DNA of 33,381 bases from a virus: positions 1-33,381 of IMG/VR virus record IMGVR_UViG_3300010354_000315, one strand, 5' to 3'. The translations under genes were made by a program, and so were the position numbers. Below are positions 4,026-32,864 of the stretch, piece after piece (the stretch's first letter is position 1; each line of letters begins with the position of its first letter). The notes under the pieces are model-generated. The model made no database searches. It was not told the origin of the DNA and saw nothing but the letters and a program-made list of their open reading frames with translations.

Positions 4026-4033
4026 AATAAATA
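4026..4033 (+). promoter_or_regulatory. Possible late promoter box (AATAAATA)
   Basis: One mismatch to the TATAAATA late box, placed in the 34-base gap between the 74-residue protein and the 205-residue Ser-rich protein, 23 bases before its start. Spacing to the start is like that of the exact boxes elsewhere in the window. The AT-rich background makes chance matches possible. Confidence 0.4.
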
Positions 4034-4056: not shown

Positions 4057-4674
4057 ATGAAAAAAGAAAGAAAAATAAAATTAAAAATACAAAATAAAAC
4101 TGTATTTAAGAGTAAAAATGTTTTATTGTTGTTTGATAATGCATTTAAAGAATACGAACCATTAAAATATAAAGACGCATTTTTAAATGAATTAGGTGTA
4201 CAGAGTGCACCTAATTTGTTGGGTTGTGCAGATTCGTTCTTTGTATTAGATGCAGATCCCTGTGATCCTCCTCCACCACCTCCGCCTCCTCCACCACCAA
4301 GTTCGTCCAGTTCGTCCAGTTCGTCTAGTAGTTCTAGTAGTTCTAGTAGCTCTAGTGGTGTTAGTAGCAGCAGTAGTAGTAGAAGAAGTTCTAGTAGCAG
4401 TGGTGGCCCATGCATAATACCCGGATGTTGTTTTAGCACCTGTCAATCATGCGAACTAGCATTAGATGGCACAGGAAGTGTTATCTTTGTAAATGGATGT
4501 CCTGTTTATAATTGTTTTGCTGCTTGTGCAAACGGCTGTAGGGATCCAAATTTGTGTGGTTCTAGTTCATCATCGTCATCATCAAGATCATCGTCATCAT
4601 CCAGCAGTGGTGGCGGAAGCGGATCTACTGGCACAGGAACTAGTGGACAAGGATTGGGAGTAACATTATTATGA
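4057..4674 (+). CDS. Pro/Ser/Cys-rich putative surface protein (205 residues)
   Basis: Unrecognised, but strongly organised. Residues 1-50 are basic and possibly folded; 53-69 carry the shared module NLLGCADSFFV with Cys57 and Cys69; 71-81 are eleven Pro; 82-115 are Ser tracts broken by GV and RR; about 118-167 form a compact domain with about ten cysteines (PGCCFSTCQSCE, CPVYNCFAACANGC) that suggests disulfides or metal binding; 168 onward is a second Ser tract ending in a Gly/Ser/Thr tail. The reading frame is real: the Ser codons mix TCN and AGY types, and the stop overlaps the start of the glycosyltransferase gene (ATGA). Probable role is a small linker-bearing virion surface protein, possibly modified by the neighbouring enzyme. 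Both statements are inference from layout and composition. Confidence 0.75.
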   Translation: MKKERKIKLKIQNKTVFKSKNVLLLFDNAFKEYEPLKYKDAFLNELGVQSAPNLLGCADSFFVLDADPCDPPPPPPPPPPPSSSSSSSSSSSSSSSSSSSGVSSSSSSRRSSSSSGGPCIIPGCCFSTCQSCELALDGTGSVIFVNGCPVYNCFAACANGCRDPNLCGSSSSSSSSRSSSSSSSGGGSGSTGTGTSGQGLGVTLL

Positions 4675-5456
4675 AAATATATCTATCATATTGGCCAAAT
4701 GGTTATGTAAATGGAATGACGGAAGAAGTTATGAATATGCATAAATTGTCTGTTCACTTGGTAAATAAAAATTACGGAGAATGTCATTTGATGACAGATA
4801 AAAAAGGTAAAGAATTATTAAAACATTTGCCTTTTAAATCTATAAGCACAGATTTAGACATAATTTCTAATGTAAGAACACACAATTGGGCTTTAGGTAA
4901 ATTATACACATATTACATGTTATCAAAATATGGCATAAATTTTTTACATTTAGATTATGATGTTTTTTTATGGAAACCTTTACCTGATACCTTTTTACAA
5001 AATTTGATATTTGCACAAAGTATAGATTACCATACACACTTTTATTGTGAAGAAATTTTTCAAAGAGAAGCAAAAAACAAATATTCGGCAAAAAAATTCA
5101 ACAATAATAACATTGCATACAATATGGGTATTTTTGGTGGAAGTGATTTGGATTTTATATCTAAATATTCAGAAGAGGCAATTGAATTGACATTAGATAA
5201 AGAAAATCAAAATTGTTATAATTCTATGGCAAATTGTTTTCATTCTTCAGTGGCGTGCTTTTGTGAGCAAATGTATTTAAGAATAACAGAGCAAAATTAT
5301 AATAAAAAAATAGAATGTTTATTCGGTACTCTAAGTGATCATAAAAAAATGGATAAATTGAGCGTTGAATACGGTTATACCCATTTAATAGGTGAAAAAC
5401 AAAATTTAACAGTTCATAAAAAAATAAAGAAAAGAATAATTGAACTCGGATTATAA
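4671..5456 (+). CDS. Putative GT-A type glycosyltransferase (DUF6734-like)
   Basis: Likely transfers a sugar from a nucleotide-sugar donor. Visible support: an N-terminal beta-strand start (MKIYLSYWP), the segment WALGKLYTYYML at residues 73-84, and FLHLDYDVFLWKPL at 91-104, in which Asp95-x-Asp97 has the form and position of the metal-binding DxD motif of GT-A enzymes such as GT32/GT8 and related bacterial families. NMGIFGG near residue 151 fits the acceptor-side segment of such enzymes. The 261 residues are a normal length. It overlaps both neighbours (ATGA at the start, TAATG at the end), so it is coupled to two poly-serine proteins. That placement suggests Ser O-glycosylation of the fibre linkers, but host-surface modification cannot be excluded. 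I am fairly sure of the fold, unsure of the substrate. Confidence 0.72.
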   Translation: MKIYLSYWPNGYVNGMTEEVMNMHKLSVHLVNKNYGECHLMTDKKGKELLKHLPFKSISTDLDIISNVRTHNWALGKLYTYYMLSKYGINFLHLDYDVFLWKPLPDTFLQNLIFAQSIDYHTHFYCEEIFQREAKNKYSAKKFNNNNIAYNMGIFGGSDLDFISKYSEEAIELTLDKENQNCYNSMANCFHSSVACFCEQMYLRITEQNYNKKIECLFGTLSDHKKMDKLSVEYGYTHLIGEKQNLTVHKKIKKRIIELGL

Positions 5457-8400
5457 TGACAGACCCACGATTAAATGACTGGTTTGTAGATAGAATAACA
5501 CAATCTAACCTTTTAGGTTGTGATGAGAGTTTTGATGTTCCTGTTTTTAATGTATGTGGTCCTGGAGGTCCACCAATATCAAGTTCATCTACTGCACCAC
5601 CCCCTCCGCCACCATCTTCATCGTCATCTTCATCATCGATTTCTTCCAGTTCATCTACTTCTTTAAACTGTTCTATCTTACCATATAAGTTAAGACTTCA
5701 GATGACTGATCATTATTATGTTGTAATGGATGCATCAAAAAACGGTTATCTCTCTGAAGTGCAGATACCTGGTACATTACCTAATAACAAATATTCTTCT
5801 TTTTTTATAAGAGCAGTTCCTGATTCAGGTATTGTTGATTTAACTCTTTGTTGTGATCAATATAATGCAAGATATGCTAGTAATTTAATTAGATTAAATT
5901 TAACAGTTCCTCCAAATTCAGTTCTTGTTAAAAATCTAATAGAAGTTAATAAATTAAATCCTTTATTGTTTAAAAAAGGCCCTTATTATTGGTATAAAGA
6001 AGAGGGATGTGCGTCCGCTTCCCCCGTTTTACTGAATGTTTATGCGTATGCCTTTTTGACTTGGTCTGAAGGCGCAAAAAAATGGTATTTTCAATATTAT
6101 GTTGTTGCTCCTGTGTGTTATACGGGTTCAGGTTGTGATAGTTTCACGGTAGCACCTGCAGATTTTAAATACCCAAACAGCTTTAGTGATCCCTGCATAG
6201 GATTCAATGAATTAAGCATGGATGTTATAGAACCATATAAAACTGTAAAAATACCAAGAATAGAACACGGTTCGTTTTTTACATGTAAAGATGGTTATGA
6301 ACTAGATTTACAATCACCATATCTGATTGAAGTGCCAAGATTTGGTAATAGGCTTGAAGAGTTTACTACTTACGATTTATATCACCAATCACCAGATAGA
6401 AGATCTCGTGGTGAAATAATCAATGAACCAATGATAGCCGAGGGACCGAGAAGATCTATTACCAACTATGCCCCATTTGCTTTGAACTGCAATACTGGTG
6501 CAATAGCACCCCCAAGTGTTCCTGGTGTAGATTGTTTTAATACAGTAGATTATAGATGTTATCAAGATTCTCTTTTTACTAGACTAGGAAGATATTTGCT
6601 AAATGTTGATTTTTATCGTTTTAGAGTTGAAGGTGACGCTTTTGTAAAATATTCGTATTACTATTACAGCACAGAAGTATATTGTTTACAAAAAGAACAA
6701 CCTTCTAGCAGCAGTAGCAGTAGCAGTAGTTCATCCAGACCTACAATTTGTTCTACTGCACCAGAACAAATTACTGTAAAATATACATTAGAAATTCCAA
6801 TTATTGAACAAGAAAATATCGTATATAAAACTTTTATATTCCAACAAACATTATATGCATTAAACATACAATATGTTAATTATCCAGTTTATAGTGCACT
6901 AAAACCAACAAAAACAACAACAAACAGCCCAAATAAAACAATAAAAATATTAGATTCAGAAGGGTTTAATGAGGCATCTGCACTATTTGATGTTGATGTT
7001 TGGGGACATATTAATGCATATGGCGTATTTGAAGATGGAGTTATAAAATATAAATTTGGGTTAACTTTTTATCACTCAGGAATATCTTGTAATAGTTATG
7101 ACAGTTCAGGTGTAAATTGTTTAGATTGCCCATACGAAAATAGAATTCCGACTCCAATAACATCTGTTGACTACACATATGATCAAGCAAAACAGATATA
7201 TGAGCAACAAGGAAGTTTTACTCCAAAATATAAGTTAACAGATGAAGCATGTAATTCTGTTATATTAACTTGTCCAGAAAAACTATGCCCAATCGGAACA
7301 GAAATACAAGAACTTTTTAAATTAAATGTTCAAAAATTATGTAGTGCTACACCGGATTCAGAAAAAATTTCATATATTGAAGCAGAACTTGTAAACACAA
7401 ATCCGGATGTTTGGATTCCCGGAAGAATTATAGATTCAGCAAATTATACTTGTCCGTCTGGTGGATTTTGGGATAGAGTAGTTTCTGTCGAGTTTATTGA
7501 CCTAGAAGATCCTGTTTGCAGATCTTCTTCTAGTTCTTCTAGTAGTTCGTCTTCTAGTTCTTCTAGTAGTTCGTCTTCTAGTTCTTCTAGTAGTTCATCT
7601 TCTAGTAGTCGTTGTCCTACAGCACCAGAATATATTCAAATATTTCATACATTAGAGGTAACCTCTTTTTATAATATAGGTGCACCAACACCAGAAACAA
7701 AATTATTTTGGTTCGTAGAAACCTTATATCCTTATCAATTAGAATATAATACTAATCCGGTGTATCTTCCACTTCAAGCTTCTGCTGCCATTGATGTTGG
7801 AGGTTTCCCAGACACAACAGTAAAAGTACCAACCTCTACATTTAATTTTCCAGCAAGTGGTGTTTTAGATTCGCCTGTTTGGTCCACGTCTATATTATAC
7901 CCACAAACTATAGGCGGAGTTACAAAATATTATTATAAAAGACACTTAAATACTCAAACTGGGGGTTGCACCGTTTTAACTGCAGGGTCTTGTTTATCAC
8001 AATGTCCAACTGACAGACAAATATTAACACCGGTGGTCCCCAAGATATATGATGGTAGCACAGAATTAACATCAGTATATAATCGTTTATATGTTCAAAA
8101 TTTAAAACCACTTTTTGTAATATCCACTGCAACTCCGGTTTGCACAGATACAAATCCGAATCCACCTGCAGTTGGAACATGTTGTTCTACGCTATTATTG
8201 CCAAATGAAACAACAGTCACGTTAATGCCTCTTTCGTTTACAAGAGATGGAACAACTGCGGAATATTGGAACACGGATACCGGAGAACTATTAGAATCCA
8301 ATCCATCAAATTGGAATAATCGTATGGTTTTATATGACGTAACCACAGGAGATGGCACTCCTTATCGTATTAGGAGGAAAATAGAATTAGATCTTGTTCA

Positions 8401-11400
8401 GTTTCCTGCTTGTTTTTCTAGTTCATCCAGTTCTTCAAGCCGCTCTTCTTCGAGTAGTTCTTCTTCATCATCTTCTAGTAGTTCAAGTAGAGCATTTTGT
8501 AACAAAACAGTAACATATACAATAGATGTTAAAAACCAATATTCAGGTTATGAAACTACAGGGTGTAAATTTATACATTATCTACATCAATGTACACCAG
8601 TAACCGGTGTCACAGGTAATCTAAAACGAACATATACAACCACATTGTACAATGAAGCAGATTTAACTAGTACTATGAGAAATACTAGGGATCGGTGTTC
8701 GAATCCGGCATATCAGGGTGATTCTATTTTATGGAGTAAATTACAAATAACCCACGAACCCGGAAACGTTGGTACAGGATTTAGCAATGGTAAGTTGGAA
8801 GTTTTGGGGTTTGTGGAATATGCTAAATGTTGTAATGAAGGAACAACAATACCAAATATTAGAAGTGAAGGATATACTGTATCACAAGCATGTTCCGGCG
8901 AACAAATAAAATTAAAATACGTAACAGCAGATTGTCACGGTGCTGTAAATGATGATATTGTGAGACTTGGGCCTATTGCTGGTGGTGCAATAGCTAATTC
9001 GTTTTATTTTGCAAAAAATACCCAAAATGAAAATTCTACTTGGTTATACCAATCCTCTTTTGCAGATGGACTTCCGGATTGGAATAATGGGGATTTAGGA
9101 TCATATAGAATATCTATGACCATATCTGATAACTGCAGTTCTAGTAGCAGTTCTTCTAGTTCATCATCCAGTTCATCTTCCAGCTCATCTTCAAGTTCTT
9201 CATCAAGTTCTTCATCAAGTTCTGCGTTATGTCCCAAGTTAATAAAAACAAAAATAACTTTTAAAAACAATAAACCAACAACACCAGAGCCGGTAAATAA
9301 TGTTATTTTTAATACCATAGTGGATAGAACCACGTTAACACCAGAGGGTCCAAATTCTCTACAATATTCTGCTAAAAAATTATATGAACCGGATATTAGC
9401 AGTTTTGAAAAAACTGCTAAAGTGGTGTGTGCCGATGGCAGTTATAGAGATTCCAAGTTGTGGGCATATTCGTCTTTTATTTTTAATCCTAGTACTCAAC
9501 AACTAAAATTAACAACTAAAATATATTCTGCAGGTTGTAATTGTTTTTCTGGCTGTGCATCTTGTTCGGATTTTAGAGTGCCAATTGTAAGCAGTGAAAA
9601 TGTTTCTGTTGCTGGATCGTATATACCAAGATTAGTTTACAATGAAGCCACTTGTTCAAATGTTGTTGGTTCGTTCTCAAGTGAACCGGAATATATAACA
9701 ACAACTGAAACATTTACATTATCATCATTTACAAATATTAATAATACATATACTGCTTCTAATGCAAGTATTGGATTCTCTATAGAATACCAAATAACAG
9801 ATGACCCCACTTGTATAGTGCCATCTTCTTCATCTTCATCCTCTAGAAACTATCCAATGTTTGCTTTATTGGGAGACAGTGGTGAATTGCCATTAGATGA
9901 AGATCTTAGAATTGCAAATGCAATAAAAGCACAGAATCCAGATTATATTATTCATATAGGCGATACTAATTATTATACACCGACAACAGGAACAGCATAT
10001 ACTAACGCATTTACAACAAATTTTTTCAATCTTTGGTCTGGAACTGGAAATTGGTTAAACAAAATGTATGTTGCTTTTGGTAATCATGATTTAGATTTAA
10101 GCACAGATTATGGCTTAACAATAATTAATAATTTATCTTTAGTTAGCAATGAAATAGGTTTAACAAATATAAACAATAGAAGATTATATTACGATTTTAT
10201 ATACCAAGGAATGCATTTTTTCGTATTAAACACAGGAAACACCCTCTGCGGTGACAGTATGACAGAAACAACAGGTTCTCCGAATAGGGATGCCAAACTA
10301 CAATGGACAACACAAACTACTGCAATAAAAGCGGCAATAAGAGCATCAACTGCACCTTGGAAAATATTAGTTTTACATAAAGCACCTTATACAAACGATA
10401 GCACCCACTATCCAGGTGTAACTAAAGCAAGAAATCTCGGAACTACTAATGGCATAGTAGACACACATAAATCTCTTGGAATAGACGTAGTGATATCTGC
10501 ACACTCTCACTTGTATGAACATCTAATAATAGATACTGTTAATTATATTGTTCAGGGAGCAGGTGGTGCAAACTTAAGGTGTCCTGTTTCTCCTCCCCAA
10601 ATAGGAACACAATTATCATATTGTTTAAAACACAGTTATACACTTTTAAAGAAAATAGATAATGGATCAATTTCAAATCTTATATTTGAAACAAGATCGA
10701 TTGATGATGAATTTATTGATTATGTAACACTAACTAAAAATACCAGTAGTTCATCGTCTTCATCATCCTCTTCTTCCTCATCCTCTTCTTCATCATCTTC
10801 TTCATCTTCCTCTTCTAGTAGTTCTAGTAGTTCTTCAGGAGTAAATCCAGTTTCAATTTATAGAATGAAAATTAGTTTTAATGGCACTCCATCATGTGGC
10901 CAAACTCTTTCAAATGTAACTTTTCAAGATAATCTTTATGTGTGTGATCCAACAAACCCAATATTCCATGTGCCACTAAAAGCAACAAGAGCACTTACTC
11001 CAACACAAGCAGGATATCCTTGTACAAATCTGTATAAATCAGTTTGCGCAAATAGTGTGTGCCTAGATTCTCCAATGTATGGGGTGTGTGGTCTTTATGA
11101 ACAAGATTATGGTGCAGGTGATATTAGAACTACAGTATATGTGAGAGTATTTGCAGAACCCTGTGTATGTGTAGACACCTATAATACACCAAATTGTTGG
11201 TATGGTAATTGTAATTCGGGTCAGTATAATATAGGAAATGTAACATCCATTACTTTATCGTTAGATAATGCTTGTATACAACCATATCAATTTAAATCTA
11301 ATTTTACAACATGCGCATGGGAGGCGAACTCTTTTGTTGGTATAGACGAAGTTGTATCTGATATTGCAGAAATATCTTTACCAATAAATCAACTAAATGG

Positions 11401-11464
11401 CACATATTCACTTACAACTATTAATTGGTCATGGCCTTTGGAATTAACAATTACAAAATTATAA
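5456..11464 (+). CDS. Giant modular poly-serine fibre/adhesin with a phosphatase domain (2002 residues)
   Basis: Probable host-contact virion protein. Order: shared module NLLGCDESFDV (18-34), Pro/Ser linker (41-70), then modules separated by Ser runs at about 417-428, 690-718, 988-1012, 1228-1256, 1457-1463 and 1764-1794. Modules after the runs begin alike (an early Cys and a beta-strand such as VKYTLE, IFHTLE, VTYTID) and contain D-x-x-x-W/Y: 512-516, 805-809, 1089-1093, 1332-1336 and 1871-1875. They look like diverged copies of one Cys-containing beta domain of 200-270 residues; the first (71-415) is longer and only loosely similar. Residues 1465-1763 are instead a purple-acid-phosphatase-like metallophosphatase. 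No signal peptide or membrane segment is seen. The start overlaps the glycosyltransferase stop. Fibre role is inference from size, modularity and neighbours; the reading frame is certain. Confidence 0.85.
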   Translation: MTDPRLNDWFVDRITQSNLLGCDESFDVPVFNVCGPGGPPISSSSTAPPPPPPSSSSSSSSISSSSSTSLNCSILPYKLRLQMTDHYYVVMDASKNGYLSEVQIPGTLPNNKYSSFFIRAVPDSGIVDLTLCCDQYNARYASNLIRLNLTVPPNSVLVKNLIEVNKLNPLLFKKGPYYWYKEEGCASASPVLLNVYAYAFLTWSEGAKKWYFQYYVVAPVCYTGSGCDSFTVAPADFKYPNSFSDPCIGFNELSMDVIEPYKTVKIPRIEHGSFFTCKDGYELDLQSPYLIEVPRFGNRLEEFTTYDLYHQSPDRRSRGEIINEPMIAEGPRRSITNYAPFALNCNTGAIAPPSVPGVDCFNTVDYRCYQDSLFTRLGRYLLNVDFYRFRVEGDAFVKYSYYYYSTEVYCLQKEQPSSSSSSSSSSSRPTICSTAPEQITVKYTLEIPIIEQENIVYKTFIFQQTLYALNIQYVNYPVYSALKPTKTTTNSPNKTIKILDSEGFNEASALFDVDVWGHINAYGVFEDGVIKYKFGLTFYHSGISCNSYDSSGVNCLDCPYENRIPTPITSVDYTYDQAKQIYEQQGSFTPKYKLTDEACNSVILTCPEKLCPIGTEIQELFKLNVQKLCSATPDSEKISYIEAELVNTNPDVWIPGRIIDSANYTCPSGGFWDRVVSVEFIDLEDPVCRSSSSSSSSSSSSSSSSSSSSSSSSSSSSSRCPTAPEYIQIFHTLEVTSFYNIGAPTPETKLFWFVETLYPYQLEYNTNPVYLPLQASAAIDVGGFPDTTVKVPTSTFNFPASGVLDSPVWSTSILYPQTIGGVTKYYYKRHLNTQTGGCTVLTAGSCLSQCPTDRQILTPVVPKIYDGSTELTSVYNRLYVQNLKPLFVISTATPVCTDTNPNPPAVGTCCSTLLLPNETTVTLMPLSFTRDGTTAEYWNTDTGELLESNPSNWNNRMVLYDVTTGDGTPYRIRRKIELDLVQFPACFSSSSSSSSRSSSSSSSSSSSSSSSRAFCNKTVTYTIDVKNQYSGYETTGCKFIHYLHQCTPVTGVTGNLKRTYTTTLYNEADLTSTMRNTRDRCSNPAYQGDSILWSKLQITHEPGNVGTGFSNGKLEVLGFVEYAKCCNEGTTIPNIRSEGYTVSQACSGEQIKLKYVTADCHGAVNDDIVRLGPIAGGAIANSFYFAKNTQNENSTWLYQSSFADGLPDWNNGDLGSYRISMTISDNCSSSSSSSSSSSSSSSSSSSSSSSSSSSSSALCPKLIKTKITFKNNKPTTPEPVNNVIFNTIVDRTTLTPEGPNSLQYSAKKLYEPDISSFEKTAKVVCADGSYRDSKLWAYSSFIFNPSTQQLKLTTKIYSAGCNCFSGCASCSDFRVPIVSSENVSVAGSYIPRLVYNEATCSNVVGSFSSEPEYITTTETFTLSSFTNINNTYTASNASIGFSIEYQITDDPTCIVPSSSSSSSRNYPMFALLGDSGELPLDEDLRIANAIKAQNPDYIIHIGDTNYYTPTTGTAYTNAFTTNFFNLWSGTGNWLNKMYVAFGNHDLDLSTDYGLTIINNLSLVSNEIGLTNINNRRLYYDFIYQGMHFFVLNTGNTLCGDSMTETTGSPNRDAKLQWTTQTTAIKAAIRASTAPWKILVLHKAPYTNDSTHYPGVTKARNLGTTNGIVDTHKSLGIDVVISAHSHLYEHLIIDTVNYIVQGAGGANLRCPVSPPQIGTQLSYCLKHSYTLLKKIDNGSISNLIFETRSIDDEFIDYVTLTKNTSSSSSSSSSSSSSSSSSSSSSSSSSSSSSSSGVNPVSIYRMKISFNGTPSCGQTLSNVTFQDNLYVCDPTNPIFHVPLKATRALTPTQAGYPCTNLYKSVCANSVCLDSPMYGVCGLYEQDYGAGDIRTTVYVRVFAEPCVCVDTYNTPNCWYGNCNSGQYNIGNVTSITLSLDNACIQPYQFKSNFTTCAWEANSFVGIDEVVSDIAEISLPINQLNGTYSLTTINWSWPLELTITKL
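7526..7597 (+). repeat. 24-base tandem repeat, three copies, in a Ser-coding tract
   Basis: The unit TCTTCTAGTTCTTCTAGTAG plus TTCG is repeated at 7526-7549, 7550-7573 and 7574-7597, the last copy differing only at its final base (A for G), followed by a partial fourth copy. Each unit encodes eight Ser, so gain or loss of a unit lengthens or shortens the linker without shifting the frame. It looks like recent slippage or unequal recombination. Confidence 0.9.
9191..9223 (+). repeat. 12-base tandem repeat in a Ser-coding tract
   Basis: The unit TCAAGTTCTTCA occurs at 9191-9202 and 9203-9214, with a partial third copy to 9223. It encodes four Ser per unit in the linker between the fourth and fifth modules of the giant protein. 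Upstream of it (from about 9137) are looser related units. Confidence 0.8.
9848..10744 (+). other. Purple-acid-phosphatase-like metallophosphatase domain inside the giant fibre protein
   Basis: Residues 1465-1763 of the 5456-11464 protein. All five family blocks are present in order: GDSG (Asp1474, the DxG form of purple acid phosphatases rather than DxH), GDTNYY (Asp1503, Tyr1506, matching GDxxY with its iron-binding Tyr), GNHD (Asn1543, His1544), LVLHKAPY (His1641) and SAHSHLYEH (His1683, His1685, matching GHxHxYE with Ala for Gly). From known chemistry of the family this would be a dinuclear metal phosphomonoesterase. The conserved ligands argue that it is catalytically competent. It is bounded by Ser linkers on both sides and replaces a regular module, so it seems to have been inserted as a unit. 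Confidence 0.88.
10745..10837 (+). repeat. Longest poly-serine tract (31 Ser codons)
   Basis: Thirty-one consecutive Ser codons (residues 1764-1794) joining the phosphatase domain to the last module. Codons are mainly TCT/TCA/TCC at first, giving a long pyrimidine-rich strand, then AGT appears at the end. The mixed codons show the run is kept at protein level and is not a simple microsatellite. Confidence 0.9.
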
Positions 11465-14245: not shown

Positions 14246-15727
14246 ATGGACCCCCGTAATCAAATGTTAACTGAGTCAACAAGACAAAAGTGGGACGCTA
14301 TCGTAAATCACGAAGCACTCCCAGAAATCAAGGACAATTATCGCAAGACAGTTACCACCATTCTTCTAGAGAATCAAGAGCGTGCTCTTCTCTCTGAGAA
14401 CGGCGTAACAGGCACCGGTCTAGGTGTAGTCGGTGGAGCATCAACCGCTGGCACAGGTCAAGGTATCGATGCTTTCGATCCAATTCTCATCAGCCTAGTT
14501 CGTCGTTCTATGCCAAATCTAATGGCTTACGACATTGCTGGCGTTCAACCAATGAATGGCCCAACAGGTCTAATCTTCGCAATGAAGACCAAATATGGTG
14601 CCGCTAACGCATCAACTGGTAGCCGTGGTACAAGCGAAGCACTATTCAAAGAAGCCGATTCTGGATTCTCTGGATACCGCAACGCTGCAAGCATCACCAA
14701 TGGTGCAGGTGGTAATACCACTCACTCAGGAAATATGGGTGATATTTTTGCTTCTGACACATTAGGTGCAGGTGCCGGTACTGATAAGGCTTTCGAGGCA
14801 GGTAACGGTATGGCAACAACAAGTGCTGAAAAATTAGGAAGCACTGGCACATTCAATGAAATGTCTTTCAGCATTGAGAAGACATCTGTAACTGCTAAGA
14901 GCCGTGCTCTAAAGGCAGAGTACACAACAGAACTCGCTCAAGACCTAAAGGCAGTACACGGTCTAGACGCTGAGACTGAACTTGCCAATATTCTCAGCAC
15001 CGAGATTCTTTTTGAAATCAATCGTGAACTAGTTAGAACTATTTACCAAGTTGCCCGTCTAGGTTGCCAACAAAGCGATCTAAACGGTAAGCAATCAGGT
15101 AAGGGTCTAAATGCTCACGGCGGTGGTGGCGTTTACGATCTAGAGTTAGACTCTGATGGTCGTTGGTCAGCCGAGAAGTTCCGTGGTTTAACTTTCCAAC
15201 TAGAAAGAGAAGCTAACGTAATCGGCGCAGATACCCGTCGCGGTAAGGCCAACTTTGCTGTAGTCTCTCCTGACGTTGCTGCAGCCCTCACAATGAGCGG
15301 TCTATTAGACTTCAGCCCAGCATTCAGCGGTGCACTAAACACCGATGTAAATGGTAACACCTTCGCTGGTACACTACACCAAGGCAGAATGAAGATCTAC
15401 ATTGATCCATATTCAATGCCAACTCACACCGAAAACTGGACACCAACAAACTTTGTTTGTGTAGGTTATAAGGGAACCAGCCCATATGACGCAGGTATTT
15501 TCTACTGCCCATACGTTCCACTACAAATGGTAAGAGCTGTTGATACCAGCACTTTCCAACCCAAGATTGGATTTAAGACCCGCTACGGCATGGTCAGCAA
15601 TCCATTCGTAACTACAACACTAACAGGTTCAACTCCAGACGGTGAAAACCTAACTGAAAGAGTTAACCAATACTACCGCATCTTCCGCGTAGACAACTTA
15701 CACGGTAATGATGCAACCCTCAGCTGA
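14246..15727 (+). CDS. 23: Major capsid protein gp23
   Basis: Forms the hexamers of the head shell. The 493 residues compare with 521 in T4. Recognisable parts include MLTESTRQKWDAIVNHEALP near the N-terminus, RRSMPNLMAYDIAGVQPMNGP at about 90-110, MSFSIEKTSVTAKSRALKAEY in the middle and KIGFKTRYGMVSNPF near the C-terminus. The N-terminal helical part is removed in the family by gp21; LSE at 49-51 before NGVTGTG is a plausible site by the (L/I)xE rule. Codon use differs from its neighbours: more C-ending codons (GAC, AAC, ATC, CGC) and higher GC, as expected of a very highly expressed gene. It ends in a double stop (TGATAG) followed by a terminator. Confidence 0.98.
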   Translation: MDPRNQMLTESTRQKWDAIVNHEALPEIKDNYRKTVTTILLENQERALLSENGVTGTGLGVVGGASTAGTGQGIDAFDPILISLVRRSMPNLMAYDIAGVQPMNGPTGLIFAMKTKYGAANASTGSRGTSEALFKEADSGFSGYRNAASITNGAGGNTTHSGNMGDIFASDTLGAGAGTDKAFEAGNGMATTSAEKLGSTGTFNEMSFSIEKTSVTAKSRALKAEYTTELAQDLKAVHGLDAETELANILSTEILFEINRELVRTIYQVARLGCQQSDLNGKQSGKGLNAHGGGGVYDLELDSDGRWSAEKFRGLTFQLEREANVIGADTRRGKANFAVVSPDVAAALTMSGLLDFSPAFSGALNTDVNGNTFAGTLHQGRMKIYIDPYSMPTHTENWTPTNFVCVGYKGTSPYDAGIFYCPYVPLQMVRAVDTSTFQPKIGFKTRYGMVSNPFVTTTLTGSTPDGENLTERVNQYYRIFRVDNLHGNDATLS

Positions 15728-19051: not shown

Positions 19052-19639
19052 ATGGGCCGAAAAAAGAAACAAAAAACAACAGAAGAAAAAATAAAACCAC
19101 AACCAAAAACTAAAAAAGAACATTATATAGACAATAAATTGTTCTATAAAGAGATGGTTGACTGGAAGAAAAAATTTAAAGAAGCTCAAGAGATGGATGA
19201 GCCTGCCCCTCCTGTATCAGAATATATTGCAATGTGTTTCTTTCATATTGCAGAAAATTTAGCAAAAAAACCCAACTTTGTAAACTATCCCTTTAAAGAG
19301 GATATGATTGGGGATGGAATAGAAAATTGCCTGATGTATTGTAGCAATTTTAATCCCAGAAAATCTAAAAATCCATTTTCGTATTTTACACAAATAATAT
19401 ATTACGCATTTCTTCGTAAGATTCAAAAAGAAAAAAAACAAAATTATATAAAATATAAATTTTTAGAATCACAAGATAAAGAAGGAAACTTCACAGAGTT
19501 CCTGAAGTTATTAGGAATAAATGAAGAAGAGGGTGAGATGTATAAGAGAATGTCTGAAGAAAAGGAAAAAGAAAAAGTAAAAAAGAAAAGAAAAAGCAAG
19601 AAAAAAATAAACACTCTTATAGAGGATACCGATGAGTAA
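19052..19639 (+). CDS. 55: Late sigma factor gp55
   Basis: Directs host RNA polymerase to TATAAATA late promoters and, with the gp45 clamp, couples late transcription to replication. The 195 residues compare with 185 in T4. The centre matches the family: YPFKEDMIGDGIENCLMY, then NFNPRKSKNPFSYFTQIIYYAFLR and RKIQKEKKQNYIKYK, equivalent to sigma region 2. T4 has the same NFNPEKSNNPFGYFTQ pattern. A GTG at 19031 is in frame, but AGGAG at 19041 fixes the start at 19052. Lys-rich ends (first 30 residues and 165-190) flank the core. The start is close behind a host-type promoter, fitting early or middle expression. Confidence 0.95.
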   Translation: MGRKKKQKTTEEKIKPQPKTKKEHYIDNKLFYKEMVDWKKKFKEAQEMDEPAPPVSEYIAMCFFHIAENLAKKPNFVNYPFKEDMIGDGIENCLMYCSNFNPRKSKNPFSYFTQIIYYAFLRKIQKEKKQNYIKYKFLESQDKEGNFTEFLKLLGINEEEGEMYKRMSEEKEKEKVKKKRKSKKKINTLIEDTDE

Positions 19640-20675
19640 AGTTGCTTTTATAACTGATACACATTTTGGTGCTCGTAACGATTCTCCTTTATTTGTGGAA
19701 TACTTTCTGTCCTTTTTAGAAGGACAGTTTTTTCCCTATTTAAAGGCCAATAATATCAAAACAATCGTTCATCTTGGAGATCTGATGGATCGTAGAAAGT
19801 TTGTAAACTTCTTTGTCCTATCTCAAGTTAAGACTAGATTTATAGATTATTTAAAAAAGAATGAAATACAATTTCACTGTATCATCGGAAATCATGATAC
19901 TTTTTTTAAAAACACAAATGATTTAAATTCTGTAAAAGAATTGTTTGGCGATGACGGTATTCATATTTACGATAAACCAACATGCAAATCTATTGAAGGA
20001 TTTGATTTTGCAATTGTTCCTTGGATAAACAAAGAAAATGAAAAAGAATGTCTTGATTTTATCAAGACCGCTAAAGCAGATATATGTCTTGGGCATTTTG
20101 AATTATATGGTTACGAAATCATGAGAGGCATTCCGCACGAAGACGGAATGGATCCAAGCATATTATCTAGATTTGAAATGGTTCTGAGTGGCCATTTTCA
20201 TGTAAAACATAGTAAAGAAAACGTTCATTATCTGGGAACACCGTATCAGATAACATTCAATGATCTAGGTCAAAAAAAGGGATTCTATGTCTTTGATACT
20301 GAAACTCGTAATTTAGAATTTATAGAAAATGAAAAAAAATTATTCTACAGTATTCGTTATAATGATGTCGAATATGATATGTTAACTTTAGATTTTGAAC
20401 GTTATAGAAATTGTTTTATGCGTGTCATAGTTGAAAAGAAAACAAACAAATTAATGTTTGATGAATATATTAACAGATTAAATGCAGTAGAAGTTTCTGA
20501 ATTAAATATTATAGAATCATTTGGGGAAATAAAACAAGAACAAGTTGACATTGACACAACTAAGGATACACTAAGCATCATTAACGATGAAATTGATCGT
20601 ATGAACGAAGTACCTAATAAAAATAAACTTAAAACTATCATTCATACGCTTTATCTGGAGAGTCTTTCACAATGA
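19632..20675 (+). CDS. 47: Recombination endonuclease subunit gp47 (SbcD/Mre11 type)
   Basis: Nuclease subunit of the gp46/gp47 complex, which resects DNA ends to make 3' single strands for UvsX. The 347 residues are near T4 gp47 (339). Metallophosphoesterase motifs are intact: DTHFG (Asp9, His11), GDLMDRR (Asp50), GNHD (Asn87-Asp89), LGHFELYG and LSGHFHVKH. It overlaps the gp55 end by eight bases and the next start by four (ATGA), so it is part of a tight operon. The gp46 partner is two genes downstream. Confidence 0.97.
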   Translation: MSKVAFITDTHFGARNDSPLFVEYFLSFLEGQFFPYLKANNIKTIVHLGDLMDRRKFVNFFVLSQVKTRFIDYLKKNEIQFHCIIGNHDTFFKNTNDLNSVKELFGDDGIHIYDKPTCKSIEGFDFAIVPWINKENEKECLDFIKTAKADICLGHFELYGYEIMRGIPHEDGMDPSILSRFEMVLSGHFHVKHSKENVHYLGTPYQITFNDLGQKKGFYVFDTETRNLEFIENEKKLFYSIRYNDVEYDMLTLDFERYRNCFMRVIVEKKTNKLMFDEYINRLNAVEVSELNIIESFGEIKQEQVDIDTTKDTLSIINDEIDRMNEVPNKNKLKTIIHTLYLESLSQ

Positions 20676-29927: not shown

Positions 29928-32864
29928 ATGAGCATAATTAAACTTAAAAGATCAGAAACAGCAGCAGCAACACCAGCATCGCTTGAATACGGTGAAGTTG
30001 CTATCAATATTACAGATAAAAAAGTTTATATTGGTAATAGTTCAGAAAATCCTGTTTTGATTGTAGACGGTAACAATACAACGTCAGAAGGGGTTCAGGA
30101 TACTGCGGCCTCCCTGCTCACCTCTGGAACACATACAGGAATTATAGTATCTTATCCAGATACAAACAATGCAATCAATCTTTCAATTGATTCATCTGTT
30201 GTTACCCTTACAGGTACGCAAACACTAACAAATAAAACATTAACATCTCCAACATTTACAACTCCAATTTTAGGCACTCCTCAATCTGGCAATTTGAGCA
30301 ACTGCACAAGTTTACCAATATCAACTGGTGTGTCTGGACTTGCTTCTGGTATAGCAACATTCCTAGCAACACCTTCAAGTTCAAATTTAGCAACAGCAGT
30401 TACAGATGAAACAGGTTCTGGTTCTTTAGTATTTGCTACATCTCCAACACTTGTTACTCCAATTCTTGGTACTCCACAATCTGGTACATTAACTAATTGC
30501 ACCGGACTACCAATATCAACTGGTGTGTCTGGATTGGGAACAGGTGTTGCAACCTTCTTAGCAACGCCTTCAAGTGCAAATCTGGCAGCAGCAGTTACAG
30601 ATGAAACTGGAACTGGTAGTTTAGTATTCTCTGCTTCTCCTACATTCACTGGAACAGTAAACGGAGATGCAGCATTGTTCACTGGAGATATCACTGCAAA
30701 TAGATTCTTTGGACATCATGTTGGTGAACAACAAGTTGAAGTAAAAAATACAAGTGGTGTAACAATTCCAAACGGATATCCTGTATACATCACAGGAACT
30801 GTTGGAGCAACATCTGTTTTGGAAGTTGCAGCAGCAGATGCATCAAATTCTGGCAAGATGCCTGCAGTTGGTTTAACAACTCAAGAATTAATAGCAAATG
30901 CCACAGGATATGTTACTATCATGGGTACAGTTACACAGGTAGACACAAGCACCTATGCAGTTGGCAATACTGTATATGTTGCTCCGGGTGGTGGATTAAC
31001 TGTAACAAAACCAACGGGATCAAACTTAATTCAAAACATTGGTAAAGTTGGTAGAGTAAATTCAAATAATGGAGAAATCGTTGTTACTGGTCCTGGTCGT
31101 ACTAACGATGTTCCAAACACAATTCCTTCAAATGCAACATGGAACGGTCAAACAATAGGCGTTGCTTATGGTGGAACTGGAACAGCTACTGGAAGTATAA
31201 CTGGTACTGGAGCACTTACATTTACAGCCGGTGGTACTAATACAAATGTTACATTAGTGCCAAATGGTACAGGAAGTGTAGATGTTTCGTCCAAGAAAAT
31301 TATAAACCTTACAACACCATCATCTTCAACAGATGCAGCAACTAAGGGATATGTAGATTCTGTTGCTCAAGGACTCCATGTTCACTCAACGGTAAAGACT
31401 GCAACAACCACAACTTTAGCCACACTCACTGGTGCAACAGTTTCCTATGCAGGTGGGGCAATCACATGGACAGGTGGAAACGCAGCAAATGGTGCGTCTT
31501 TCAACGATGGTACTACATTAACTGCAAATAATACAGAAGCTTCAGCAGACAAGATATTAGTAAAGAATGAAGCAAGCGTTGGTGGTCTTGGTGCCGCATA
31601 TAATGGTGTATATTATGTCTACGCTGCAAGAGAACTGAGAAGATCATCTGATGGTGACGCTGCATCGGATTGGTTAGGTGGCGATTTCGTATTCGTAACA
31701 GACGGAACGACTTATGATAATACTGGTTGGGTTCAGACAAATAAAGTAACAACTCTTGATACTGACCCAATCGCTTTCCAACAATTCTCAGGTGCTGGAA
31801 CATTCACCGCAGACGAAACTACACTAACATTATCGGGTAGTGTTTTTAGCATCAAGAACACATATGTTGGTCAAACAAGTATTACAACATTAGGAACTAT
31901 TGCAACTGGTACATGGAATGCAACCGCTATTGGTGCAACTAAAGGTGGTACAGGACAAACAACATATGCTGCTGGTGATTTATTATATGCATCGTCATCA
32001 AGTGCATTATCAAAATTAACAATTGGTGCTAATAATTATGTTCTTACATCAGACGGCACAAATCCAGTTTGGACAGCAAACACAGGAACGGGAAGCGTTG
32101 TAAGAGCAACTTCTGCAACTTTATCCTCACCAACATTTACAACTCCAATTTTAGGTACACCACAGTCAGGTACACTTACAAGCTGTACAGGATTGCCATT
32201 GACTACTGGTGTAACTGGAACATTAGGAACCGCTAACGGTGGTACTAACTTGACCTCTTTCACATCTAAAGGATTAGTATACGCCTCATCCGCTAATGTT
32301 CTAGCAACAGGAAGCGTATTTGGTGTTACTGAATCTGGTGCAGCATCTAATACTAGAAAAATTAATATTACATCAACAGTCGGTGTTGCTACTGGATTTG
32401 AAGCAACCGAATCAACTTACGGTAGCACTGCTTTTATTGGTATAGGTTCTGATTATTCTGGTGCAATTCATTCATATTCTGCACCATATGTTTCTTTAAA
32501 TAATGGAACAACATCTACTTTAATTGAAGTTGGTCCTGCTGGAGATAGCACTATTCCCGTTTCGGCATATTCTTTTTATAGTCAATATGACGGTGGAATA
32601 AATCTAACATGGTTAACATCCTCAGATAATATGTTTTATGCAACTATTAAAATAGGCTTTGATTATTCCAGTAATTCATATATTACATTTGAAGACAATG
32701 CATCAAATGGCAACAGCATAAATATAATGGCAAACATACTGAAGATAAACACAACTACACCAGCATCAGGTAAGATATTGACTTGTACCGATTCAAATGG
32801 TACAGTATCTTGGGAAGATAATGCAGGAGCAACACTAGCAATTTATAACGCAGGAGTAATATAA
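29928..32864 (+). CDS. Tail fibre protein with repeats (978 residues)
   Basis: Likely trimeric fibre for host contact. The N-terminus [20 protein letters not shown] then [17 protein letters not shown] is the common phage fibre head that ends in a variable-length repetitive shaft. Residues 107-236 hold two tandem repeats ([43 protein letters not shown]), with a third, partial copy near 734-766. A central domain ([34 protein letters not shown]) and another with [20 protein letters not shown] and [12 protein letters not shown] occur in many marine phage fibres. Next comes [20 protein letters not shown], then a C-terminal part (780-978) without repeats, the probable receptor-binding end. No chaperone or protease signature such as a C-terminal S74 peptidase is seen. 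Confidence 0.88.
30246..30638 (+). repeat. Two direct repeats (about 195 bases each) in the tail-fibre gene, third partial copy at 32127
   Basis: 30246-30440 and 30441-30638 encode near-identical 65-residue units; a partial third unit (about 100 bases) lies at 32127-32225. Shared DNA such as ACTCCAATTTTAGG-like and CCTCAATCTGGC-like pieces shows common origin with synonymous drift. Confidence 0.85.

Follow-up and report, generated by a model that had tools for sequence, protein, structure and literature searches.

A purple acid phosphatase-type module between poly-serine linkers of a giant, probably virion-borne protein in a T4-like phage

A purple acid phosphatase (PAP)-type metallophosphatase module, supported by sequence profile, predicted fold, and ligand set, was found at positions 9848 to 10744 inside a giant 2002-aa open reading frame (ORF) of a T4-like phage. 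The window analysed here was the whole stretch of 33,381 nt (positions 1 to 33,381 of IMG/VR record IMGVR_UViG_3300010354_000315, one strand). It is reasonably probable that the giant ORF (5456 to 11464) encodes a late, virion-borne beads-on-poly-Ser protein of a T4-like myovirus, one bead of which would be a catalytically competent PAP. The giant ORF and its inner components were as follows:

5456 to 11464, + strand: giant 2002-aa ORF, composed of an N-terminal anchor, poly-Ser-linked Cys-containing modules, and the PAP module
aa 62-416, 428-689, 719-987, 1012-1227, 1257-1456, and 1795-2002 of the giant ORF: Cys-containing modules
aa 54-61, 417-427, 690-718, 988-1011, 1228-1256, 1457-1463, and 1764-1794 of the giant ORF: Ser runs
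9824 to 9844, + strand: 7-Ser linker (aa 1457-1463) preceding the domain
9848 to 10744, + strand: PAP-type metallophosphatase domain (aa 1465-1763), recognized by Pfam and an AlphaFold2 (AF2) model
10745 to 10837, + strand: 31-Ser linker (aa 1764-1794) following the domain, with TCN and AGY codons mixed

The frame 9848 to 10744 was open throughout, and the PAP domain was bounded exactly by the Ser runs aa 1457-1463 and 1764-1794; the original prediction, which had set the domain between Ser linkers of a giant protein, was thereby borne out. Most linkers of the giant ORF mixed TCN and AGY serine codons, which are not interconvertible by one base change, and thus the serines seemed to be selected rather than produced by slippage. 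The giant ORF contained 64 Cys in 2002 aa, and no hydrophobic signal-like N-terminus was seen when its sequence was inspected by eye. Two Ser-linked modules (6737 to 7522 and 7610 to 8416) were mutually homologous (28% identity, phmmer 7e-13); judged from these sequences, they are a duplication inside the giant gene, and a scan with both of them gave no outside relatives. The giant ORF had no PHROG, and Pfam gave only Metallophos plus a low-complexity match, namely DUF4667, which was set aside since it covered the 31-Ser run.

Repetitive Ser linkers can mislead assemblers, and the nearest non-phage sequence relatives of the domain were bacterial, as would be expected if an assembly chimera or contaminating bacterial DNA had been joined at the Ser repeats; this origin is nevertheless exceedingly improbable, because GC3 and codon usage were alike in the domain, in the remainder of the gene, and across the genome, one open frame ran throughout, and the longest exact DNA repeats were 16 nt in the N-side linker stretch and 21 nt on the C side, making a repeat-driven chimera unlikely.

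Pfam Metallophos was matched with an E-value of 9.1e-13 by the domain alone and 2.3e-11 by the whole ORF. At an E-value of about 1e-3, the only phmmer matches in the PDB were mammalian PAPs, and the top six at E-values up to 10 were mammalian tartrate-resistant (purple) acid phosphatases (TRAPs). A profile built from 75 sequences retrieved 17 PDB sequences (best 6e-17), all of which were PAPs or the PAP-fold protein GAP50: (i) human, rat, and pig TRAP, (ii) wheat purple acid phytase and the PAPs of kidney bean, sweet potato, and lupin, and (iii) GAP50. The Pfam match, the phmmer matches to PAPs, and the best profile match together indicated that the five metallophosphatase blocks did not arise by chance. 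Matches to the yfcE and arsenate-reductase families of NCBIfam were weak, far below cut-off, and were rejected.

The AF2 model of the domain, predicted from the same 75-sequence alignment, had a pLDDT of 79 and a pTM of 0.85, with loops 99-110, 132-143, and 199-203 poorly predicted. PAPs were its best matches in the PDB, superposing over about 260 residues with a Z of about 26. All of the 23 top-ranking VIA rows were PAPs or GAP50 (Z 22.7-26.1, with GAP50 at 24.9), and the next fold was GpdQ (Z 20.4). The profile search and the structure prediction that had been proposed as checks on the original prediction thus both led to PAPs rather than to unrelated folds, and its naming of a PAP-type domain held. 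The N-terminal FnIII-like domain of high-molecular-weight plant PAPs was absent; what preceded the domain was a Ser run and, before it, a module to which Pfam assigned no family.

The active-site positions, numbered as residues of the domain and with conservation counted over 72 bacterial homologues, were as follows:

9875 to 9877, + strand: metal ligand Asp D10 in motif GDSG (D in 71 of 72 homologues, one gap)
9962 to 9973, + strand: DTNY of GDTNY, with bridging Asp D39 (9962-9964; kept in 72 of 72) and PAP-type Tyr Y42 (9971-9973; kept in 70 of 72)
10082 to 10087, + strand: ligand N79 (N in 72 of 72) and second-shell H80 (H in 70 of 72) of GNHD
10376 to 10378, + strand: ligand His H177 in block IV, LVLH (His in 72 of 72)
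10406 to 10408, + strand: candidate general-acid His H187, ten residues past the ligand His (H in 59 of 72)
10502 to 10510, + strand: ligands H219 and H221 of AHSH (each in 72 of 72)

All five blocks, GDSG, GDTNY, GNHD, LVLH, and AHSH, were present in the predicted order (the PAP motifs being DxG, GDxxY, GNH(D/E), VxxH, and GHxH), and all seven metal ligands (D10, D39, Y42, N79, H177, H219, and H221) were present and conserved, in agreement at the sequence level with the earlier claim of intact catalytic ligands. GDTNY aligned with GDNFY of TRAP in the phmmer comparison with the PDB; the Tyr ligand of PAPs gives the Fe(III) charge-transfer colour. Enzymes of this class have a dinuclear Fe(III)-Zn/Mn/Fe(II) centre and act as phosphomonoesterases. 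The PW-x5-H spacing at H177 was the same as in the plant PAP aligned by the profile. The second-shell residues H80 and H187 were both found in the window domain; H187 presumably corresponds to His296 of kidney-bean PAP and His195 of TRAP, the catalytic His of the kidney-bean enzyme lying 10 residues past the motif-IV ligand. Block IV read HKAP in the window and mostly HH-x-P in the relatives; K178 did not represent a ligand loss, because the first His was invariant (72 of 72) while the second was found in only 62 of 72. With this residue set, the PAP domain of the window is likely to be active as a phosphatase. PAPs usually work best at acid pH, a preference that may be a poor fit to the phage habitat.

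Relatives of the domain surfaced only when family alignments were used. Single-sequence scans of viral and genome contigs with the domain, and of viral contigs with the giant ORF, gave no relatives, and, within the sensitivity of the searches, neither IMG/VR nor a set of 50,697 phage records yielded any for the giant ORF. The tblastn comparison of the giant ORF and the domain with the 50,697 phage records returned nothing at E-values of 0.01 and 1e-5, and two weak matches, both in unannotated fecal scaffolds, at E-values up to 10; the gene content of one of them, MT839322, looked bacterial. No giant-ORF relative was present in 80 portal-relative loci, in which poly-Ser frames were mostly short antisense readings. 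In the tree of 82 domains, which had three label changes, the window had a very long end branch of 5.26 and no firm placement.

With the window included, the PAP module occurred in four phage protein architectures, the tree not settling whether they were separate acquisitions. Besides the poly-Ser beads of the window, these were (i) PAP as the C-terminal partner of an adaptor-like domain, seen in at least seven diverged phages, L169, L087 (equivalent to L086 and L088), L170 (equivalent to L175 and L186), L177, L183, L188, and L192 (equivalent to L191 and L193); (ii) PAP located ahead of Big_2 and von Willebrand A (vWA) domains in one chain in L171 to L174, L178, and L179; and (iii) PAP as the C-terminal part of a 1362-aa protein of L180, where the Tyr ligand was missing. 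A separate Big_2-vWA protein was observed after the PAP gene in L087 and L177. Representatives of the first two architectures were as follows:

L171, 7605 to 9854: PAP plus Big_2 plus vWA protein, with relatives in L172 to L174, L178, and L179
L170, 7125 to 8747: adaptor-like domain plus PAP, an apparent phage pseudoenzyme, also in L175 and L186

The N-terminal domain of the adaptor-PAP proteins was conserved and about 260 aa in length. Its AF2 model (pTM 0.68) matched the adaptors of SU10, crAss001, Pa223, cyanophage A4, N4, and T7 with a Foldseek E-value of 8e-7, a Z of about 9-10, and an rmsd of mostly 7-9 A; this domain is therefore a probable head-tail adaptor according to the model, the Z and rmsd values making the assignment less than certain. 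L194 kept the N-terminal adaptor-like domain with a different C-terminal part, indicating that the PAP module was swappable. Any matches to the L169 connector-PAP protein among the 50,697 phage records covered at most 22% of it.

All seven metal ligands were kept in 9 of the 11 phage rows examined besides the window. L170 had 5 of 8 core active-site positions replaced (D39 by Asn, H80 by Arg, H177 by Asn, H219 by Asp, and H221 by Lys), such that the motifs of L170, L175, and L186 read GNNNY, GNRD, FNSPP, and GDSK, and the L170 sequence was found in contigs of three metagenomes (L170, L175, and L186, the last with a partial domain). Retention of this decayed copy indicated a fold worth keeping without catalysis, and thus kept alive the alternative that the PAP domain of the window is a phosphate- or glycan-binding or spacer bead, like the PAP-fold pseudoenzyme GAP50 of Plasmodium. 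The decayed copies shared the architecture of intact ones, L180 lacked the Tyr, and GAP50 was itself a close fold match of the window domain; such a non-catalytic bead is still unlikely here, since most other phage rows were intact and the window, despite its long and diverged branch, kept the seven ligands plus both second-shell His, a pattern not easily explained unless catalysis was under selection.

The window carried a T4-like myovirus gene set, with portal, head protease, scaffold, major head protein, tail tube, UvsY, DNA helicase, gp55-like sigma factor, SbcCD, clamp, and clamp loader as markers; the portal and major head protein were about 51-54% identical to their best cyanophage and pelagiphage matches. 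The major head protein gene (14246 to 15724) had a GC of 0.465 and a GC3 of 0.38, compared with GC3 values of about 0.13-0.23 for the remaining genes and gene segments that were measured. A second metallophosphatase (19632 to 20675) was an SbcD-like nuclease subunit, related to the PAP domain only at superfamily level. Within the cluster of head genes, the giant gene was flanked by gp20 and gp21. The gap between portal and protease, occupied by four small ORFs in HTVC008M and one in P-RSM4, was about 10 kb in the window and harbored a cassette of a 569-aa ORF, a 205-aa protein, a DUF6734 ORF, the giant ORF, and two small ORFs. The features upstream of the giant ORF were as follows:

4026 to 4033, + strand: late-promoter-like AATAAATA, 31 nt ahead of the ORF that starts at 4057
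4057 to 4674, + strand: 205-aa poly-Pro/poly-Ser protein, whose N-terminal NLLGC..SF motif was common with the giant ORF
4671 to 5456, + strand: DUF6734 ORF (PF20508, E 1e-43) with an LDYDVF (DxD-like) motif, a putative glycosyltransferase

The 205-aa and DUF6734 ORFs overlapped by 4 nt, and the DUF6734 and giant ORFs by 1 nt; the three form a putative late operon. Exact TATAAATA sites were found 28-41 nt ahead of the ORFs starting at 2089 and 11692 and of those for the scaffold and the major head protein. The 205-aa protein resembled a short sibling of the giant ORF: the N-termini of both had the motif NLLGC(A/D)(D/E)SF, followed by poly-Pro and poly-Ser. The common motif suggests that the two proteins may be anchored at one kind of site.

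The gene context and the fusion architecture make it likely that the giant ORF product is located in the virion. The original prediction had called the giant protein structural and a fibre: the former is favored by the place in the head cluster, the late-promoter-like AATAAATA, and the fusions of the domain with adaptor-like proteins elsewhere, virion location itself being an inference; the latter found no backing, as no fibre, receptor-binding, or tail family matched the giant ORF and no fibre fold was found (its PAP module being the only part folded). Only one ORF of the window looked fibre-like, a 978-aa ORF (29928 to 32864) that begins with a weak Mtd_N match and contains repeated motifs; by its sequence it is the likelier tail-fibre gene.

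A location outside the particle would apply if the giant protein acted late inside the infected cell, e.g., on phosphorylated nucleotides or proteins. Phage metallophosphoesterases acting within the cell are known, as in the case of mycobacteriophage Gp48 (PMC12287305), but the poly-Ser beads, the high Cys content, the head-cluster position, and the fusions by which other phages join the PAP domain to an adaptor-fold protein all speak against such a role, which is judged improbable. A virion-borne protein thus remains the preferred reading.

DUF6734 adjoined the PAP gene on either side: it was directly upstream in the window and directly downstream in L171 to L174, L178, and L179, whose homologues had E-values of 1e-20 to 8e-23 (Pfam E 4e-37 in L179). 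The window DUF6734 gave nothing by tblastn against the 50,697 phage records at an E-value of 1e-3, was not found in the 80 portal-relative loci, and had no convincing relative in the PDB. The aligned DUF6734 proteins had an (L/I)D-x-DVF motif in common, which suggests a GT-A type glycosyltransferase. GT4-type glycosyltransferases were found two genes downstream in L087, L177, L170, and L188, and none in the scanned parts of L169. PAP might thus be a recurrent virion-displayed module travelling with a glycosyltransferase that decorates particle proteins (DUF6734 or GT4-like), with O-glycosylated poly-Ser strings in the window; this proposal is rather doubtful.

Comparison with known systems gave the following likenesses and differences. 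Low-molecular-weight PAPs (TRAP/uteroferrin) shared with the window domain the fold, the seven ligands including Tyr, GNHD, the second-shell His past motif IV, and a length of about 300 aa without the N-terminal FnIII-like domain, but identity was only about 15-18%, and the eukaryotic enzymes are free and secreted whereas that of the window is a module of a phage protein. The closest sequence relatives were bacterial PAP-like metallophosphoesterases (Hymenobacter, Chloroflexota, and Ensifer; 26-38% identity) with the same ligands, the Hymenobacter protein having a secretion-system sorting tail and that of Ensifer being a giant repeat protein; unlike the window gene, these are cellular genes, with no poly-Ser linkers noticed and usually His in place of K178. 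The connector-PAP fusions resembled the giant protein as probable virion proteins near head genes, but lacked poly-Ser and had PAP as the C-terminal part, in phages that may not be T4-like. ORF22 of Thermobifida phage P1312 (1096 aa, encoded directly after a tail gene) likewise pairs a metallophosphatase (MPP) with a carbohydrate-binding module (CBM4_9), but has a signal peptide and is predicted to be secreted, with neither PAP class nor Ser beads described (PMC4569894). Among viral proteins, the model was matched best in structure by Bacillus phage G Gp352 and further long calcineurin-like phage proteins of BFVD, although with a TM of about 0.6 and less than 20% identity.

The PAP family is old and known, and phage proteins with metallophosphatase domains have been described earlier (P1312 ORF22 and, as a structure match, phage G Gp352). 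The literature searched, with subscription journals thinly covered, contained no phage virion PAP, and no poly-Ser bead PAP in a T4-like phage, recurrence in particle proteins, decayed copy, or linkage to DUF6734 appeared in the searchable literature.

In the proposed mechanism, the giant protein would be made late in infection, its N-terminus would put it in or on the particle, and the flexible serine tethers would display the phosphatase on the virion, to be carried along after lysis. The dinuclear centre, a predicted Fe(III)-M(II) site, would then cleave phosphate esters in debris, on the host surface, or in its vicinity, with phosphorylated glycans, lipopolysaccharide, and teichoic-acid-like polymers as candidate substrates, and the benefit may lie in adsorption, penetration of surface polymers, or release from debris. 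A substrate on the host surface is proposed only tentatively, and the roles named in the original prediction (stripping of phosphate from host surface polymers, receptor destruction, and phosphate release near the cell) would be equally tentative.

Most enzymes known from phage particles are lyases, esterases, or hydrolases of glycan or peptidoglycan. The PAP domain is a protein open to direct expression and assay; if the reading given here is true, a metal-dependent acid phosphatase has been recruited by several phage groups into differing architectures of particle proteins, with decay to a pseudoenzyme in one case, and host-surface phosphate would be a barrier or a receptor feature for them.
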